Below are positions 40,465 to 49,250 of a stretch of 64,000 nt of DNA, in pieces (position 1 is the stretch's first letter; every line of letters starts with the position of its first letter). Source of the DNA: Symploca sp. SIO3C6 (GTDB lineage: Bacteria; Cyanobacteriota; Cyanobacteriia; Cyanobacteriales; Coleofasciculaceae); contig JAAHHJ010000015.1 in NCBI GenBank assembly GCA_010692425.1, positions 62,001 through 126,000 on the forward strand, read 5' to 3'. The notes beneath the pieces were generated by a model. It searched no databases, was not told the origin of the DNA, and worked only from the letters and a program-made list of their open reading frames with translations. Both the position numbers and the translations under genes were made by a program.

Positions 40465-42573
40465 TTAGAGCAAGGTTCGATAAGGACTGGTTAATTTATC
40501 CAGCTGTTGTACCAATAGGGAAAGAAACAAACCAACATCAGTGACGACACCGACCGATTCTACGGAACCGCGGTCACTTAACTTCGTCACCACAGCTGGG
40601 TTAATATCAACACAAACCATCTTAACTCCGGCTGGGGTCATATTACCAACCCCGATGGAGTGTAGCATCGTTGAGAGCATCAAAATCATGTCGCTTCCTT
40701 CCAGAAGCTGGGCATATTCAGCCTGAGCTTTGATCAAGTCCATCTGGGTATCAGGCAAAGGTCCGTCATCGCGGATCGAACCAGCTAGAGCAAAGGGAAC
40801 CTGATTACGCACGCATTCATACATCACGCCTTTGGTGAGCAAGCCTTGCTCTACCGCCTTGGCAATGCTGCCGCACCGGCGGATCAGATTGATGACTTTC
40901 AAATGGTGCCGATGCCCACCTTGGACAGGAATTCCTCTTTGCATATCAACTCCTAGAGAGGTTCCCATCAATGATTGCTCAATGTCGTGCACAGCGATGG
41001 CATTGCCACCTAGCAACCCCTGCACATAACCTTCTCTAATCAGGCGTGCCAGGTGTTTACTGCCACCAGTGTGAATTACAACTGGTCCTGCTGTAGCAAC
41101 AACTTTTCCGCCTTGATCACGAATTTGACGCAGTTCCCAAGCTATTTGCTCAACCACCAATTCTACCCGACGTTCGCTAGAAACACCGGCACCCATAAAA
41201 CTGAATTCCTCTTTGTTACGTTGTTCCCTGGATTCTTTTTTATGGACAGTGCGGATTCCGTCGACGCCAACAATTGCTTGTTCACCGACTTGAAGATCCC
41301 GCACTAGTTTACAATGAGCAACTGGACCAGATTCAGTCTGAGTTACAGCAATTGCAGCATCCATGCGTTGATTTTGCACCTTCACCCATTCGCAATTGAT
41401 GCGCACTTCGGTGGGATAGATGGTAGTGACATAAAAATCATCAGGAGCTACACCGTCTATGGTTACAGGTTCGAGCTTAGTATCACAAACTTCTTGGGGA
41501 GGAGTCAACGCACCTAGATCGATCAGCTGACTCATGATCTCTTCCATGAGTTTGTGGGAAGGAGCAGATACCTTGACTTCAACGCTGGAGGTACTTTGCC
41601 GTTGCACTCCCAAATCGAATTTGAGGATTTGGAAGCTGCCCCCAGCATCTATAATCAAATCTAGTGTTTTGCTGATTAGACCAGAATCTAAAAGATGTCC
41701 TTCCATACGAATGACGCGACTTTCTACTGACGCGTTGGCATGGACTTCAGAACTTACTGGCTCAGTGACTCGCAGCGTCAGGCACTTAGCAGCACCACCA
41801 GCTTTAAGAAATTCTGTCAAAGGCGTTTCCACCACTTCAAAGCCAACTGCCGCGAGGCGTTCTTTGAGTCCCTCACTAACTTTGTTCATGACTACAACTT
41901 TGTCGATATTAACCGCGTTGCAGGCAAAATTGACGGCATCAGCTTCTTCAATGGCAATCCGCTTTTCTGGCGACACCCGCATTTCGATTAAGCGATTGGA
42001 GTAGGAGTCAAAAGCTGGTGGGTAGTAAAGTAAATAGCCGCCAGTGAGGGGACAAAAACAGGTATCAAGGTGATAGAACCGCTCATCCGTTAGTCGCAGT
42101 GATACCACTTCTATGTCTAGCCATTGAGCGATGTAGGGGTGAGAATCGAGTTCAGAGCGGAAACCGTAGCCAGCCCATAACCAACGCCCTTCTCGGTCAA
42201 GCAGGGCATCTCCAGCGCCTTCAAAGGGCAATTCCTTGGGCAATTCATGTACAGTATAGCCACGATCCTCAAACCATTTTTTGAAGTGAGGCTCTTCACC
42301 CTGGCGCTCTTTGTGAAGGAAGCGGCTGAGTACAACGCTGTTACCTAAGACCAAACCGGCATTGGCAGTAAATACCATATCAGGCCAACCGACTTGAGGC
42401 TCAACTAAATCAACGATGGTGTGTTCTTTGAGGACATGGTGCAGTTTTTGCCACTGCTCGACGGCGCGATCGCGCGACGATTTGTGAATATTCCCCTCCA
42501 TCCAGGGATTAATCACGTAATCCACATCGTAGTGGTTGGGGGGACACATCAGGAAGCGAATCGAATCAGTCAT
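40465..42573 (-). CDS. argZ: Arginine dihydrolase / ornithine cyclodeaminase-type bifunctional enzyme (ArgZ/AgrE)
   Basis: Cleaves arginine to ornithine, CO2 and two ammonia, a cyanobacterial route for mobilising nitrogen including that from cyanophycin. The 702 residues comprise an N-terminal guanidine-modifying (GME-fold) domain and a C-terminal LOR/SDH-type domain (from about 285), which in AgrE acts on ornithine/proline. Catalytic residues match the characterised enzymes by number: Cys264 in GGAAKCLTL, His168 in FYHLD and Asn71 in FTANAG. The C-terminal domain keeps a nucleotide-type GGSKHLARLI segment and VCVDINPAVV. It stands alone on its strand; 3' ends converge with the 81-aa gene. 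Confidence 0.95.
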   Translation of the reverse strand: MTDSIRFLMCPPNHYDVDYVINPWMEGNIHKSSRDRAVEQWQKLHHVLKEHTIVDLVEPQVGWPDMVFTANAGLVLGNSVVLSRFLHKERQGEEPHFKKWFEDRGYTVHELPKELPFEGAGDALLDREGRWLWAGYGFRSELDSHPYIAQWLDIEVVSLRLTDERFYHLDTCFCPLTGGYLLYYPPAFDSYSNRLIEMRVSPEKRIAIEEADAVNFACNAVNIDKVVVMNKVSEGLKERLAAVGFEVVETPLTEFLKAGGAAKCLTLRVTEPVSSEVHANASVESRVIRMEGHLLDSGLISKTLDLIIDAGGSFQILKFDLGVQRQSTSSVEVKVSAPSHKLMEEIMSQLIDLGALTPPQEVCDTKLEPVTIDGVAPDDFYVTTIYPTEVRINCEWVKVQNQRMDAAIAVTQTESGPVAHCKLVRDLQVGEQAIVGVDGIRTVHKKESREQRNKEEFSFMGAGVSSERRVELVVEQIAWELRQIRDQGGKVVATAGPVVIHTGGSKHLARLIREGYVQGLLGGNAIAVHDIEQSLMGTSLGVDMQRGIPVQGGHRHHLKVINLIRRCGSIAKAVEQGLLTKGVMYECVRNQVPFALAGSIRDDGPLPDTQMDLIKAQAEYAQLLEGSDMILMLSTMLHSIGVGNMTPAGVKMVCVDINPAVVTKLSDRGSVESVGVVTDVGLFLSLLVQQLDKLTSPYRTLL

Positions 42574-44275: not shown

Positions 44276-44287
44276 GTGGTTAGACAG

Positions 44288-46270
44288 ATGAAAAGTAGCG
44301 CCACACCATATAATCAACCCCAATCTCAACCTGGCAGCAGCCAGTTTTCTTCCAATAGCAGAAGTAAATTCACGCTCTATAATTTTGCTGGACTCCAAAA
44401 AGCTCACTATCTAGTGGACACAAAAGTAGTCAATTGTGCAACAGTTGAGGAAAACTTAGAGAAGCAGTACGATTACCAGGTTTTTCTGTCGAAAAGTGCC
44501 AAAATTATCAAGGGTTCATCAGGGTCACTGAAAATTAGTGGTATCCAGGCAGAAGATAATTGTATTTTCTATAAGTATCAACAGATTAGTCAAGAAATAT
44601 ATGAAGGACTTATCAGTGTTCCTGTAACCCAAACCGATGTATCAGTGTTAGCTTTTGCCAGAGCTAATCTTGCCCAAGGTTATCTCAATACTGCTAAATA
44701 TGCTCTGGTGAGTAGTTTCGATGCTACTTTAACTAAAAAACATGCTAAGGCACTCACAAATCTAGAAATAACTGAATTAGAACGAGACCTTGAGGAGGTT
44801 ATTTTTGAGCCTTGTATTTTAAAAAAACATACCATTTTGAATAGTATCGAAGTTAATAATAAAATTTCTCTGTGGTCGTTAATCAAACTTTTAGAAAAAC
44901 ATAAAAGTAGTATCATTATTAATCTACAGCACTTACAAGAAAACTATCAACGTCAAGGTGCAAAAAGAATTGAGGGTATAAGAGATCAGGAGGGCAATAT
45001 TGTCAAACCTAAGCTGACAACTGAATATCTAGATGATGCTGAGTATGTGCAAATGGGTTCATTTGCTGTTAATCACAATACAGCGAATATCAATATGTTG
45101 ATTACTAAAAAAGTTAAATTGGTAGGTACTGAAGATGGGAGTAAAATCAACGAAGTAGCTGGCATACTAGTGACTGAACTTAAAAAATTTAGAAATTACA
45201 CCATTATCAGTGATGGTAAAGTTAATGTGAAATCATTAAAGGTCAAAATTAGTTCTAAAAAAGTATTTGAGTTGCTCAAACTAAAAGGTGTCATTGCTAA
45301 AAATGGCTTGCCTGGTGAGGAAGAAGAATTTGATTTCCGAGTTGAATGGGATTTAAGATTTGAGCATCTGCCCCTTATGGACTTTGATAGTAGTTTCGGT
45401 AGCCTTGAGAAGGTATTCAAAGAGTTAGCTACAATTAAAATTATCTCTAGTATACTCTCCGCTCATTTGCAGCAAGAGTCAGCTGTCTATATCCATGAAC
45501 AGCTGGAAGAACTACAAAATAAATATTTATCAAAGAGTATCTATATTAATTTTCCAACTACAACAGAATACTCTAATTTAGAAGAAGCGATCGCTAGTGG
45601 TGAGATTGATTCACATTTTATTCATAAAATCGATATTGGCAGTCAAGAAATTCTCAATCTCAGTAAATTATATTCAGCTAACAAATTTCTCAATCGACTA
45701 TACGAAGGATATAACCAAGATACTGGGGACAAACTAGAAAAACTGAGGTTTGATATCACTTTAGATACAAACATTATTTGTGGTCATAAGAATCTTTCTT
45801 CACGCCTAAAATTGACGAAAGTAGATGAATTAATGAGGCAGATTTTTGATAATTTTTTGGGTATCGAGGATAACGGTACCATCGCTGCTATTTTACTAAA
45901 GACTGGTGCAGAATCTCTATTGCCGATATTGGAGGCAAAATGGCAGGGTAAAGGTGTTATGAAAGAGGAACTTGTGGCAGCCTTCATTAAGGCTAATAAC
46001 CAACTTAAGGCATATACTGAAAAAATTTACAGGGAACAAGTTTCTCCTCTAGTATTCTACATCGGTGCCACTGGACTAATCCCTGAACAAATGAATGGAA
46101 TTGCAGAAACTGCTGAAGCAATTGGTGCCAAGTATGGCGATTTGCAGTTTTCTAAGCACGAGCGACAAGGAACGTTCTTTGAAGTAGATAATTCGATTAT
46201 TAGCATCTACCCTAAAAAGGAGTATTACAGCACAATTGTTGAGCTAAAATTTCCAATCAAATCAGGTTAA
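44288..46270 (+). CDS. Unrecognised 660-aa soluble protein, first gene of decarboxylase operon
   Basis: I do not recognise this protein. It starts at ATG 44288 (a GTG four codons earlier is also possible) with a Ser/Gln/Pro-rich lead of about 30 residues, then SKFTLYNFAGLQKAHYLVDT. The rest alternates strands and helices, Lys/Glu/Ile/Leu-rich, without membrane helices, a signal peptide or clear repeats. A stretch IKLVGTEDGSKINEVAGILV-like (about residue 270) and a VFYIGATGLIPEQMNGIAET segment near the C-terminus could be diagnostic in a search. Its stop overlaps the ATG of the PLP enzyme (TTAATGACG), so the two are translationally coupled. Its lower GC than flanking genes suggests acquisition. 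Confidence 0.75.
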   Translation: MKSSATPYNQPQSQPGSSQFSSNSRSKFTLYNFAGLQKAHYLVDTKVVNCATVEENLEKQYDYQVFLSKSAKIIKGSSGSLKISGIQAEDNCIFYKYQQISQEIYEGLISVPVTQTDVSVLAFARANLAQGYLNTAKYALVSSFDATLTKKHAKALTNLEITELERDLEEVIFEPCILKKHTILNSIEVNNKISLWSLIKLLEKHKSSIIINLQHLQENYQRQGAKRIEGIRDQEGNIVKPKLTTEYLDDAEYVQMGSFAVNHNTANINMLITKKVKLVGTEDGSKINEVAGILVTELKKFRNYTIISDGKVNVKSLKVKISSKKVFELLKLKGVIAKNGLPGEEEEFDFRVEWDLRFEHLPLMDFDSSFGSLEKVFKELATIKIISSILSAHLQQESAVYIHEQLEELQNKYLSKSIYINFPTTTEYSNLEEAIASGEIDSHFIHKIDIGSQEILNLSKLYSANKFLNRLYEGYNQDTGDKLEKLRFDITLDTNIICGHKNLSSRLKLTKVDELMRQIFDNFLGIEDNGTIAAILLKTGAESLLPILEAKWQGKGVMKEELVAAFIKANNQLKAYTEKIYREQVSPLVFYIGATGLIPEQMNGIAETAEAIGAKYGDLQFSKHERQGTFFEVDNSIISIYPKKEYYSTIVELKFPIKSG

Positions 46271-47673
46271 TGACGCAACCCAAACACTACCACATGTCCC
46301 CGGAAGAATTTCGCCACTGGGGATATAAGACTATCAATTGGATCGCAGACTACCTAGAGAATGTCGAGAATCTACCTGTTCTTTCTCAAGTTAAACCTGG
46401 AGAGATTAGAGCCAAACTACCAGCAATACCCCCTCAAAAGGGAGAATCTTTCGACGCAATTTTACAAGACCTCAATCAAATCATAGTACCTGGACTAACC
46501 CACTGGCAATCTCCCAACTTCTTTGCTTTCTTCCCCGGCAATAACTCTGCTCCTTCAATTCTGGGAGAATTAATCAGTGCTGGGATGGGGGTGCAGGGGA
46601 TGTTGTGGGCAACTTCTCCTGCCTGTACCGAATTAGAAACCCATGTTCTTGACTGGTTAGTAGATATGCTAGGGCTACCAAACCAGTTTAAATCCTCTGG
46701 CACTGGGGGAGGAGTAATCCAAGATTCAGCTAGCAGTGCCGCTCTAGTCGCCCTAATTGCAGCTAGAGAAGTTGCCAAGGCAGATACTAGTCAACTAGTT
46801 GCCTACACTTCTACTCAGGGACACTCCTCAATTGAGAAAGGAGTTAAAATTGCAGGACTACGCCGCGAAAACTTGCGCTTAGTTGAGGTTGATAATAACT
46901 ATGCCATGCGCCCAGATTTGCTACAAAAGTGCATTGAAGCTGATCTTAAGGCAGGCTTAACTCCTTGTTATCTGGCTGCCACTGTAGGGACAACCTCATC
47001 AAATGCTATAGATCCCATTCCTGAGTTAGGAGCGATCGCACAGAAGCATAATATCTGGTTTCATGTTGATGGGGCAATGAGTGGTACGGCAGCTCTATGC
47101 CCTGAATTTCGCTGGATTCATCAGGGATTAGAGTTAGCCGATAGCTATTGCTTCAATCCACATAAGTGGATGATGGTTAACTTTGACTGCAATTGCTTCT
47201 ATGTAAAAGATCGAACCAAGCTAATTAAAGCGCTATCGATTATGCCAGAATTCCTGAAAAATCAAGCCACTGCCTCGGGGGAGGTAATAGACTATCGGGA
47301 TTGGCAAATTCCCTTAGGAAGAAGATTCAGAAGCCTCAAACTCTGGTTTGTGATTAGACATTATGGTGTTGAGGGCTTAAAGCACTATGTTCGCAAGCAC
47401 GTCGCCTTAGCACAAGAGTTTGCCCAGTGGGTAAGTGCTGACTCACGCTTTGAACTAGTTGCTAATCCCCCTCTTAACTTAGTATGTTTCCGACACCAAG
47501 GCGGCGACGAGGTTAATCAGTTAATTCTAGATAATCTCAACGCCTCGGGAAAAATTTACCTGAGTTCAACTAAGCTTGATCACAAATTAACCTTGCGGAT
47601 GTCGATTGGGCAAGCCACAACTGAGAAGATTAACGTCGAGCAAGCTTGGCAACTGATTAGCTCTGGCGGCTAA
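46270..47673 (+). CDS. Aromatic-L-amino-acid decarboxylase-fold PLP enzyme with Tyr-to-Phe loop change
   Basis: Group II PLP-dependent decarboxylase family, 467 residues. PLP Lys299 is in NPHKWMMVNFDC, ring-stacking His185 in TQGHSSIEKG, and Asp267 in FHVDGAMSG. SPACTELE and DYRDWQIPLGRRFRSLKLW match aromatic amino acid decarboxylases closely. Counting from the PLP lysine exactly as in human DDC, the catalytic-loop Tyr332 is Phe328 here (IMPEFLKN). In plants Phe at this position marks aromatic acetaldehyde synthases, which decarboxylate and oxidatively deaminate to an aldehyde. Thus the product may be phenyl- or indole-acetaldehyde rather than the amine. Its ATG overlaps the stop of the 660-aa gene. 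Confidence 0.92.
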   Translation: MTQPKHYHMSPEEFRHWGYKTINWIADYLENVENLPVLSQVKPGEIRAKLPAIPPQKGESFDAILQDLNQIIVPGLTHWQSPNFFAFFPGNNSAPSILGELISAGMGVQGMLWATSPACTELETHVLDWLVDMLGLPNQFKSSGTGGGVIQDSASSAALVALIAAREVAKADTSQLVAYTSTQGHSSIEKGVKIAGLRRENLRLVEVDNNYAMRPDLLQKCIEADLKAGLTPCYLAATVGTTSSNAIDPIPELGAIAQKHNIWFHVDGAMSGTAALCPEFRWIHQGLELADSYCFNPHKWMMVNFDCNCFYVKDRTKLIKALSIMPEFLKNQATASGEVIDYRDWQIPLGRRFRSLKLWFVIRHYGVEGLKHYVRKHVALAQEFAQWVSADSRFELVANPPLNLVCFRHQGGDEVNQLILDNLNASGKIYLSSTKLDHKLTLRMSIGQATTEKINVEQAWQLISSGG

Positions 47674-47752
47674 GGTTGATGGTTCATTGGGAGAAGTACT
47701 TTACAGCTATGGTATACAAGCCAATGAACCATGAGCAATCAATAATGAACAA
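47674..47752. repeat. Dispersed inverted-repeat element (TTCATTGGG ... CCAATGAA family)
   Basis: GATGGTTCATTGGGAG, then a GGTATAC core and GCCAATGAACCATGAG followed by AATGAAC. Second member of the family at 23138. The 3' end of the hybrid kinase gene (47739) runs into it, so the last five residues of that protein are repeat-derived. Confidence 0.65.
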
Positions 47753-49250
47753 TTCTTCTTGGAAACAATGGCAGTTGAACCGTAAACTTAGTACCAACTC
47801 CAGGTTTGCTACTAAGGCTAATTTCTCCCTGGTGTCGCTCTACGCACCGTTTAACAATGGCTAGTCCCAAACCAGTGCCTTGAATCTTCTTAACATTGTT
47901 GCCTCGATAAAACAACTGGAAAACTTGGGTTTGGTCCGGCTCAGAAATACCAATACCTTGATCCTGGATTTGGAAGATTGCTACTTGTTGTTGATGATCG
48001 CAAGTTAAGTTAAACTCAATCTTCTCATTAGCTGGGGAGTATTTAATCGCATTCGAGAGTAAATTGGCAAGTATATAGTGTAAAAGTCTTGTGTCCATGA
48101 CAGCATTTGTACAGTCTCCAAAGCTGGTTAAGGTAATCTGGTTGAAACCTTCCCCTGTCTGGGAGAGTTCTTCGATTAACTCACGACAGAATTGCTCCAG
48201 CTCTAGTGGCACTGGGTCAAATTCTAACTTACCTGTTTCAGCTTGACCAAGCAGCAGTAAATCTTCCATAAGCTGGTTCATTCGCCCTACAGAGCTTTTT
48301 ATACGCTGTAGGTAGGTTTTTTTTTGAACCTCTGTTGCTACATCACCATAGCGATCCAGTAACTCAGCTGCTGTCAAAATGGCACTGAGAGGATTGCGAA
48401 ATTCGTGGGAAACTAAGGATGTGAACTGGGCTCGAAAACGGCTGATTTCTTGCTCTTTGACCAGAGCGTCCTCTAGGATTTTAGTCTGACGATGCTCACT
48501 GATATCCCAAAACACAACTACCGCACCACAGATTTCTCCAGATTTCTGTTTGAGGGGTGAAGCACTATAGCAAATAGGAATTTGACTCTGTTGCTTAGAA
48601 ATCAGGATTTTGTAATCTTCTAAATCAACAACTTGCTCTGTCTCAAGGACTTGTGCCACCGGATTTTCTCTGCCAGTGCCCGTAACTTCATCAAAAATCT
48701 GGAAAATATCTGTCACCTTCTTACCCACAGCCTCTGACTGACTACAGCCGGTTAGCTTTTCGGCGGTAGGATTGATAAAGTTGATCAATCCCTGTCGATC
48801 AGTAGCAATCACACCATCATTAATTGACTCTAAGATAGTTTCTAACTGCTCTTGGCTTTCTTGTAGCGATCGCTCTAACTTATTTTGATATAGGGCAAGT
48901 TCAATTGCAACTTGCAACTCGATCTCGTTAAAAGGCTTAATTATATAAGCTAAGGGTTTTGTTAGCTTAGCCCTTTCTAGAGTGTTGTGATCAGCGTAGG
49001 CTGTCAAGTAAATTACCGGAATATTCAACTGCTGACGGATTTGCGCAGCCGCAGTGATGCCATCTATCTCCCCTTTCAGGAAAATGTCCATCAATATTAA
49101 GTCAGGTTTGGTTTCTATCGCCTTAGCAATAGCTTGGGAACCAGAAGTCACCTTAGCAGTAACGATATAACCAATTCGACTCAGTTTATTAGCAATTGTT
49201 GTCGCTACGATTAATTCGTCTTCAACTACTAAAATCTTGGCGGCACTCAT
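47739..49250 (-). CDS. Receiver-PAS-histidine kinase hybrid
   Basis: A cytosolic sensor kinase of 503 residues with an N-terminal receiver (1-120: Glu10-Asp11, phospho-acceptor Asp55 in LILMDIF, Lys105 in YIIKPF). A PAS domain (about 130-255) has the GVIATDRQGLINFINPTAEKLTG core. The HisKA domain has phospho-His282 in VSHEFRNPLSA, and the HATPase has the N box LANLLSNAIKYSP, G1 DQGIGI and G2 GTGLGLAI. A receiver at the N-terminus means it can be input to its own PAS-kinase. No response-regulator gene is adjacent. The C-terminal FPRRIVHY overlaps a repeat. Confidence 0.94.
   Translation of the reverse strand: MSAAKILVVEDELIVATTIANKLSRIGYIVTAKVTSGSQAIAKAIETKPDLILMDIFLKGEIDGITAAAQIRQQLNIPVIYLTAYADHNTLERAKLTKPLAYIIKPFNEIELQVAIELALYQNKLERSLQESQEQLETILESINDGVIATDRQGLINFINPTAEKLTGCSQSEAVGKKVTDIFQIFDEVTGTGRENPVAQVLETEQVVDLEDYKILISKQQSQIPICYSASPLKQKSGEICGAVVVFWDISEHRQTKILEDALVKEQEISRFRAQFTSLVSHEFRNPLSAILTAAELLDRYGDVATEVQKKTYLQRIKSSVGRMNQLMEDLLLLGQAETGKLEFDPVPLELEQFCRELIEELSQTGEGFNQITLTSFGDCTNAVMDTRLLHYILANLLSNAIKYSPANEKIEFNLTCDHQQQVAIFQIQDQGIGISEPDQTQVFQLFYRGNNVKKIQGTGLGLAIVKRCVERHQGEISLSSKPGVGTKFTVQLPLFPRRIVHY

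Follow-up and report, generated by a model that had tools for sequence, protein, structure and literature searches.

Does a bacterial decarboxylase that carries a phenylalanine in its catalytic loop release an amine or an aldehyde? The question is raised by a stretch of 64,000 nucleotides from the cyanobacterium Symploca sp. SIO3C6 (contig JAAHHJ010000015.1; the whole stretch is called the window hereafter), which encodes on its forward strand, at 46270..47673, a 467-residue protein of the AADC family with Phe at the loop position where human DOPA decarboxylase (DDC) has Tyr. From our point of view, this protein is probably a standalone bacterial AADC-family aromatic acetaldehyde synthase (AAS). 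An earlier note, made from the DNA letters, had proposed a cyanobacterial aldehyde synthase, which appears plausible from the sequence: the Phe in the loop, the retained active-site His, the Arabidopsis enzyme AtPAAS as best solved match and published Tyr/Phe swaps speak for the activity, whereas a mosaic of Phe and Tyr among the relatives, the lack of a conserved operon and the occurrence of Phe also in Pseudomonadota speak against the proposal as it was worded.

Loop residue, fold and expected reaction

The gene was delimited as an open reading frame (ORF), with a second in-frame ATG at 46294 (forward strand; Met9), and was assigned by its Pfam profile and a PDB sequence search. Its predicted product is a group II pyridoxal phosphate (PLP) decarboxylase of the AADC family, with a PF00282 score of 389.5 bits (cut-off 27) over residues 43-409, while no NCBIfam cut-off was reached (top score 150.5 bits versus 900). 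The catalytic Lys299, the pyridine-ring Asp267 and the PLP-stacking His185 are invariant across a 45-row alignment, and the host genome (7.49 Mb in 289 contigs) gives a single match to the protein at E<=0.001.

Lys299 (codon 47164..47166, within NPHKW) and Phe328 (codon TTC, 47251..47253, within MPEFLK) are separated by 29 residues, which is, as the earlier note had stated, the distance in human DDC between Tyr332 and Lys303, the latter being what we take to be the number of the PLP lysine. In HMMER alignments the stretch runs gap-free against both human DDC (NPHKW...DPTYLK) and the Arabidopsis enzyme of PDB entry 6eei (NAHKW...NPEFLK). The strong flanking identity to the human enzyme that had likewise been claimed is borne out by the motif DYRDWQIPLGRRFRSLK, of whose 17 positions 16 are shared with the human DYRHWQIPLGRRFRSLK, and the comparison with plant AAS around the loop, which the note had proposed, places the same Phe in 6eei (Phe338 of AtPAAS in the plant numbering of PMC6411801; papers are cited here by PMC number and on the basis of excerpts). 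As such, the mark of the plant- and fungal-type AAS, Phe for Tyr at the large-loop position, is present, and the active-site His is kept as in plant AAS (His185, codon 46822..46824, equivalent to DDC His192). The insect 3,4-dihydroxyphenylacetaldehyde synthase (DHPAAS; 6jrl) shares the fold and the product type, but is described as having Asn instead of His at DDC position 192, a mark that the window enzyme lacks. Since the Phe recurs in another species of this genus (genome G386, locus L042) and in several Nostoc-group genomes, it is not a lone assembly error.

Among the solved structures, the PDB sequence search returned 6eei first (511.6 bits), an entry titled as Arabidopsis phenylacetaldehyde synthase with L-phenylalanine, followed by human AADC (459.7 bits). 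An AlphaFold2 model built from 45 sequences (mean predicted local distance difference test score, pLDDT, 88; predicted template modelling score 0.87) was again closest to 6eei in VIA-align, with Z 54.2 and 1.8 A over 451 residues at 50% identity. AtPAAS/AtAAS thus resembles the window enzyme in its whole-chain fold, the loop Phe and the retained His. However, the Z scores of 6eei, human AADC, rice TDC, poppy TyDC and human HDC all lie within one unit of each other, and therefore the fold cannot separate synthase from decarboxylase; the residue alone does.

What this residue does is described for eukaryotic enzymes. The Y332F variant of human DDC acts as a decarboxylation-dependent oxidative deaminase that forms dihydroxyphenylacetaldehyde and ammonia, not the amine (PMC7497351), AtAAS F338Y and CrTDC Y348F exchange activities (PMC6411801), and simulations ascribe the effect of the Tyr-to-Phe change to the lost proton donor and not to O2 access (PMC11308512). 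The closest microbial case is IasA of Psilocybe mexicana, which has a natural Phe329 at the same loop position and makes indole-3-acetaldehyde; it differs in being a fungal protein of 500 aa with known substrates (Trp and hydroxy-Trp best), and is likened here by description only (PMC11046786). By analogy, the window enzyme would bind an aromatic L-amino acid as external aldimine and remove CO2, and because the loop Phe has no phenolic OH for Calpha protonation, the quinonoid would react with O2 to give arylacetaldehyde, NH3 and H2O2 in place of the amine. One might instead imagine that Phe yields amine and aldehyde together, in a ratio that depends on O2, and, as the O2 level varies in photosynthetic cells, that light and dark shift the cyanobacterial product. 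We hold this to be improbable: mixed activities are described for DDC and insect DHPAAS variants, whereas AtAAS and IasA are reported to produce aldehyde.

No named or characterised bacterial Phe-loop acetaldehyde synthase of the AADC family was found in the open-licence literature, which excludes most subscription papers, and within this range we agree with the earlier note that no bacterial pathway of this arrangement has been described. The DOPA decarboxylase PP_2552 of Pseudomonas putida is a bacterial member of the AADC family with Tyr as loop residue, and a Pseudomonas DODC (7xin) is among the structure matches; CcbF from the lincosamide pathway is not known to belong to the AADC sequence family. 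PP_2552 differs from the window enzyme in being characterised as a DOPA decarboxylase (PMC6411801), while CcbF, compared by description only, resembles the proposed enzyme as a PLP enzyme that uses O2 to form an aldehyde, CO2, H2O2 and ammonia, and differs in its substrate, a cysteine S-conjugate (PMC7497351). The excerpted parts of PMC8927377, PMC6494836, PMC9048412 and PMC4993783 contain no bacterial AADC-family acetaldehyde synthase, a word search of PMC12607914 gave no hit, and a role for such an oxidase activity in bacteria or fungi has been called not easy to envisage (PMC7497351).

Phenylalanine and tyrosine among bacterial relatives

Is the Phe conserved in cyanobacterial orthologues, as the earlier note had suggested to find out? 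It turned out not to be fixed. A first reading of 98 distinct ORFs (window copy included) gave 8 Phe and 90 Tyr; with more genomes added, 33 cyanobacterial rows comprised 14 Phe and 19 Tyr, and 11 Phe and 19 Tyr are left in the 30 non-redundant rows after removal of two duplicates and a 281-aa fragment (L167). The orthologues hence form a mosaic, and the cyanobacterial enzyme is not uniformly of the Phe type. A Phe kept throughout an orthologous group usually indicates a settled function, although the activity follows the one residue and does not strictly demand such uniformity. On an IQ-TREE tree of the cyanobacterial rows (L167 omitted, column 328 masked), seven Phe/Tyr changes are needed, and a third residue never occurs at this position. 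The exchange is seen at short distance in the congeneric pairs L130 (Phe) and L156 (Tyr), with 96.3% identity, and L159 (Phe; the same protein as in L046) and L129 (Tyr), with 96.8% identity. Neighbouring genes are common to L046 (Phe) and L143 (Tyr), and likewise to L045 (Phe) and L140 (Tyr), which are therefore orthologues in place.

This alternation can be read in another way, namely that the Phe enzyme is an ordinary decarboxylase in which the quinonoid receives its proton from a different residue or from water, which would leave Phe328 near neutral and the amine as the main product. That Phe and Tyr alternate at 96-97% identity, in two cases within the same gene neighbourhood, looks as if little depended on the residue. 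However, Tyr occupies the loop position in 74 of 75 non-cyanobacterial rows, and all 60 loci read in two further phyla have Tyr as well (Bacteroidota, 30 loci from 40 matching genomes; Acidobacteriota, 30 loci from 141 matching genomes). The restriction to two residues in cyanobacteria also argues against a neutral position, as do the Tyr-to-Phe swaps in DDC, HDC, TDC and TyDC, which are described as altering the reaction. Overall, we regard an ordinary decarboxylase as unlikely, albeit as an explanation to be taken seriously.

The 75 non-cyanobacterial reference rows (distant L003, L004, L005 and L136 omitted) were drawn from the best matches and are biased to close relatives; among them 123 of the 467 columns are at least 97% conserved. 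Of these 123, 93 never change in cyanobacteria, and column 328 is the most changeable (seven changes; the next has six). No alignment column tracks residue 328, the best agreement being 74% of 27 rows. As a separate observation, all 74 other bacterial rows share His78 (codon 46501-46503), and the 30 cyanobacterial rows have 14 His and 16 Asn, with four changes that do not follow residue 328.

Outside the cyanobacteria, Phe recurs in Pseudomonadota relatives, where all 28 loci were read. Since the search centre was picked because L112 was already known to be Phe, 6 of 27 is a fairer figure than 7 of 28, and the Phe type is therefore not special to cyanobacteria. A FastTree of 188 rows requires 14 changes in total, seven within cyanobacteria and seven within the other rows (omitted were L176, L177 and L178 as repeats of a known record, the partial L076 and the fragment L167; an earlier tree of bacterial homologues omits L031 and L076; duplicates left out are the window's own copy, L031/L001, and L043, L048, L049, L045, L046 and L082). 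These counts give no direction, from Phe to Tyr or from Tyr to Phe, and the outgroups used have Tyr. Unlike the plant enzyme AtPAAS, the window enzyme has its place among bacterial homologues (55-83% identical) most of which bear Tyr, so that, in a tree with bacterial rows only, an independent gain is the simplest account of its Phe. Phe would accordingly have arisen in cyanobacteria, separately in Pseudomonadota and independently of plants, and with separate gains the relatives probably differ in amine versus aldehyde output.

The number of cyanobacterial events depends on how the residue spread. Few differences at nearby codons in L130/L156 and L163/L164 fit point mutation; in L157 and L159 many nearby synonymous sites differ from L129, so gene conversion may have carried the Phe, and the count of seven may then be too high. 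It is very improbable that the gene is decaying or misassembled and its Phe accidental. Such decay could be suspected from the 281-aa fragment and from the patchy distribution: of 388 genomes sampled from the order, 18 have a relative at E<=1e-100. However, the frames of the relatives are full-length and read without inner stops, the same Phe stands in several assemblies, and the ratio of non-synonymous to synonymous substitution is 0.044-0.192 in 13 pairs, Phe rows included (NG86; the synonymous distance is saturated, at about 2, in both pairs that involve the window gene), so that these look like working genes.

At E<=1e-150, relatives occur in 19 of 217 genomes in the family of G639 and in 5 of 10 in that of G418; 70 of 386 genomes of a phylum sample match at E<=1e-30, but just 5 of those 70 reach at least 47% identity. 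One Phe-type relative is located on a conjugative Nostoc plasmid, annotated as 'pyridoxal-dependent decarboxylase'. The wider bacterial family extends over many phyla, and a contig scan confirmed at least 583 relatives, the best 80 of which were retained. One of the loci, L119, comes from a record titled Klebsiella pneumoniae metagenome-assembled genome (MAG); its AADC falls among those of gammaproteobacterial and further proteobacterial MAGs, and the species label may be wrong.

Gene neighbourhoods

A conserved operon was considered and discarded: clustering of the ORFs at 20 AADC loci (the window and 19 relatives) brought out no general companion gene, the largest sharing being 4 of 20 loci and mostly tracking relatedness. 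Directly upstream of the window gene lies a 664-aa ORF of unassigned family (44276..46270, forward strand), whose TAA stop overlaps the AADC ATG by one base (TAATG). Neither Pfam nor NCBIfam matches it, and PHROG does so only weakly (27.9 bits); a search of 36 other genomes found homologues in 6, the longest open frame measuring 879 aa. In a sister species this homologue and the AADC are on separate contigs, and the one-base overlap is therefore probably local. On the reverse strand, the window contains an ArgZ-type bifunctional arginine dihydrolase/ornithine cyclodeaminase (40465-42573; NF052231, 1402 bits) and a hybrid signalling protein with the domain order receiver, PAS, histidine kinase (47739-49250).

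Genes for the handling of aldehyde or peroxide beside cyanobacterial Phe types, sought by scanning 20 neighbour proteins, gave isolated and inconsistent cases and hence no support. These comprise a large catalase about 1.1 kb downstream with another ORF intervening (L144), an MFS transporter (L147), a PS-decarboxylase-family gene about 60 bp downstream (L142) and a cytokinin-dehydrogenase-like FAD enzyme about 850 bp upstream (L146). Elsewhere in the host genome, PF00171 (aldehyde dehydrogenase) has eight matches above cut-off, six strong and two weak and none on the window contig, and an aldehyde could therefore be oxidised.

More distant Tyr-type AADCs (about 41% identical, 39-42%) lie inside homoprotocatechuate (3,4-dihydroxyphenylacetate, hpa) operons of rhizobia, Ruegeria and other Pseudomonadota. 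Of 27 loci tested, seven (L266-L270, L281 and L282) hold unambiguous matches to hpaE and/or hpaD in the surroundings of the AADC, and at L292 such matches are weaker; some hpa-linked loci also hold an aldehyde dehydrogenase. Such an arrangement suggests that DOPA or tyrosine is broken down through 3,4-dihydroxyphenylacetate. A link of the Phe types to hpa genes was not upheld, as none of the seven Phe-type Pseudomonadota loci has an hpaE or hpaD match within about 6 kb; neither did a scan of 20 neighbour proteins at these seven loci reveal a common theme. At one of them, L276, the AADC shares a cluster with genes for an amidohydrolase, a glutamine-synthetase-family protein and an iron-containing alcohol dehydrogenase, possibly a separate catabolic pathway, and the last two neighbours could be compatible with amine or aldehyde chemistry.

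The likely product and its meaning

Several points weigh against an aldehyde as the product. All eight hpa-linked homologues have Tyr, and the frequent flips between Phe and Tyr could reflect relaxed constraint on the product. The Phe enzyme of L276 adjoins a glutamine-synthetase-family gene, and as some members of that family ligate amines, this neighbour would fit an amine and thus an ordinary decarboxylase. In the model, the loop is among the parts of lowest confidence (pLDDT 67, 66 and 57 for residues 321-330, 331-340 and 341-350). Lastly, the open-licence literature consulted yielded no bacterial AADC with a Tyr-to-Phe swap, and the transfer from the eukaryotic enzymes is therefore an assumption.

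Taken together, the window enzyme most likely represents, in our analysis, the known kind of Phe-loop aldehyde synthases in a bacterium, and the unexpected addition is the frequency of residue flips in cyanobacteria and Pseudomonadota. A further-reaching idea, which we offer tentatively and consider possible but doubtful, is that one-base flips repeatedly switch one decarboxylase gene between amine and aldehyde plus H2O2, in cyanobacteria and again in Pseudomonadota, so that close relatives in the same gene neighbourhood emit different products; this would amount to a natural one-residue chemotype switch in bacteria. On the main reading, general dehydrogenases would oxidise or reduce the aldehyde to arylacetate or arylethanol. 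In this context, phenylacetic acid has been reported from algae, while the excerpts of the same paper hold no report of cyanobacterial phenylacetaldehyde (PMC5218379).

If the proposed activity is true, this would be, as far as the open-licence literature shows, the first Phe-loop aromatic acetaldehyde synthase to be characterised from a bacterium, providing a one-step route from aromatic amino acid to aldehyde in oxygen-evolving cells. The natural Phe/Tyr pairs represent ready-made controls, and the annotation 'pyridoxal-dependent decarboxylase' may mask differing products. Phenylacetaldehyde and indoleacetaldehyde can reach phenylacetic and indoleacetic acid, both auxins, via common enzymes, and several of the carriers belong to the Nostoc group, which includes plant partners.

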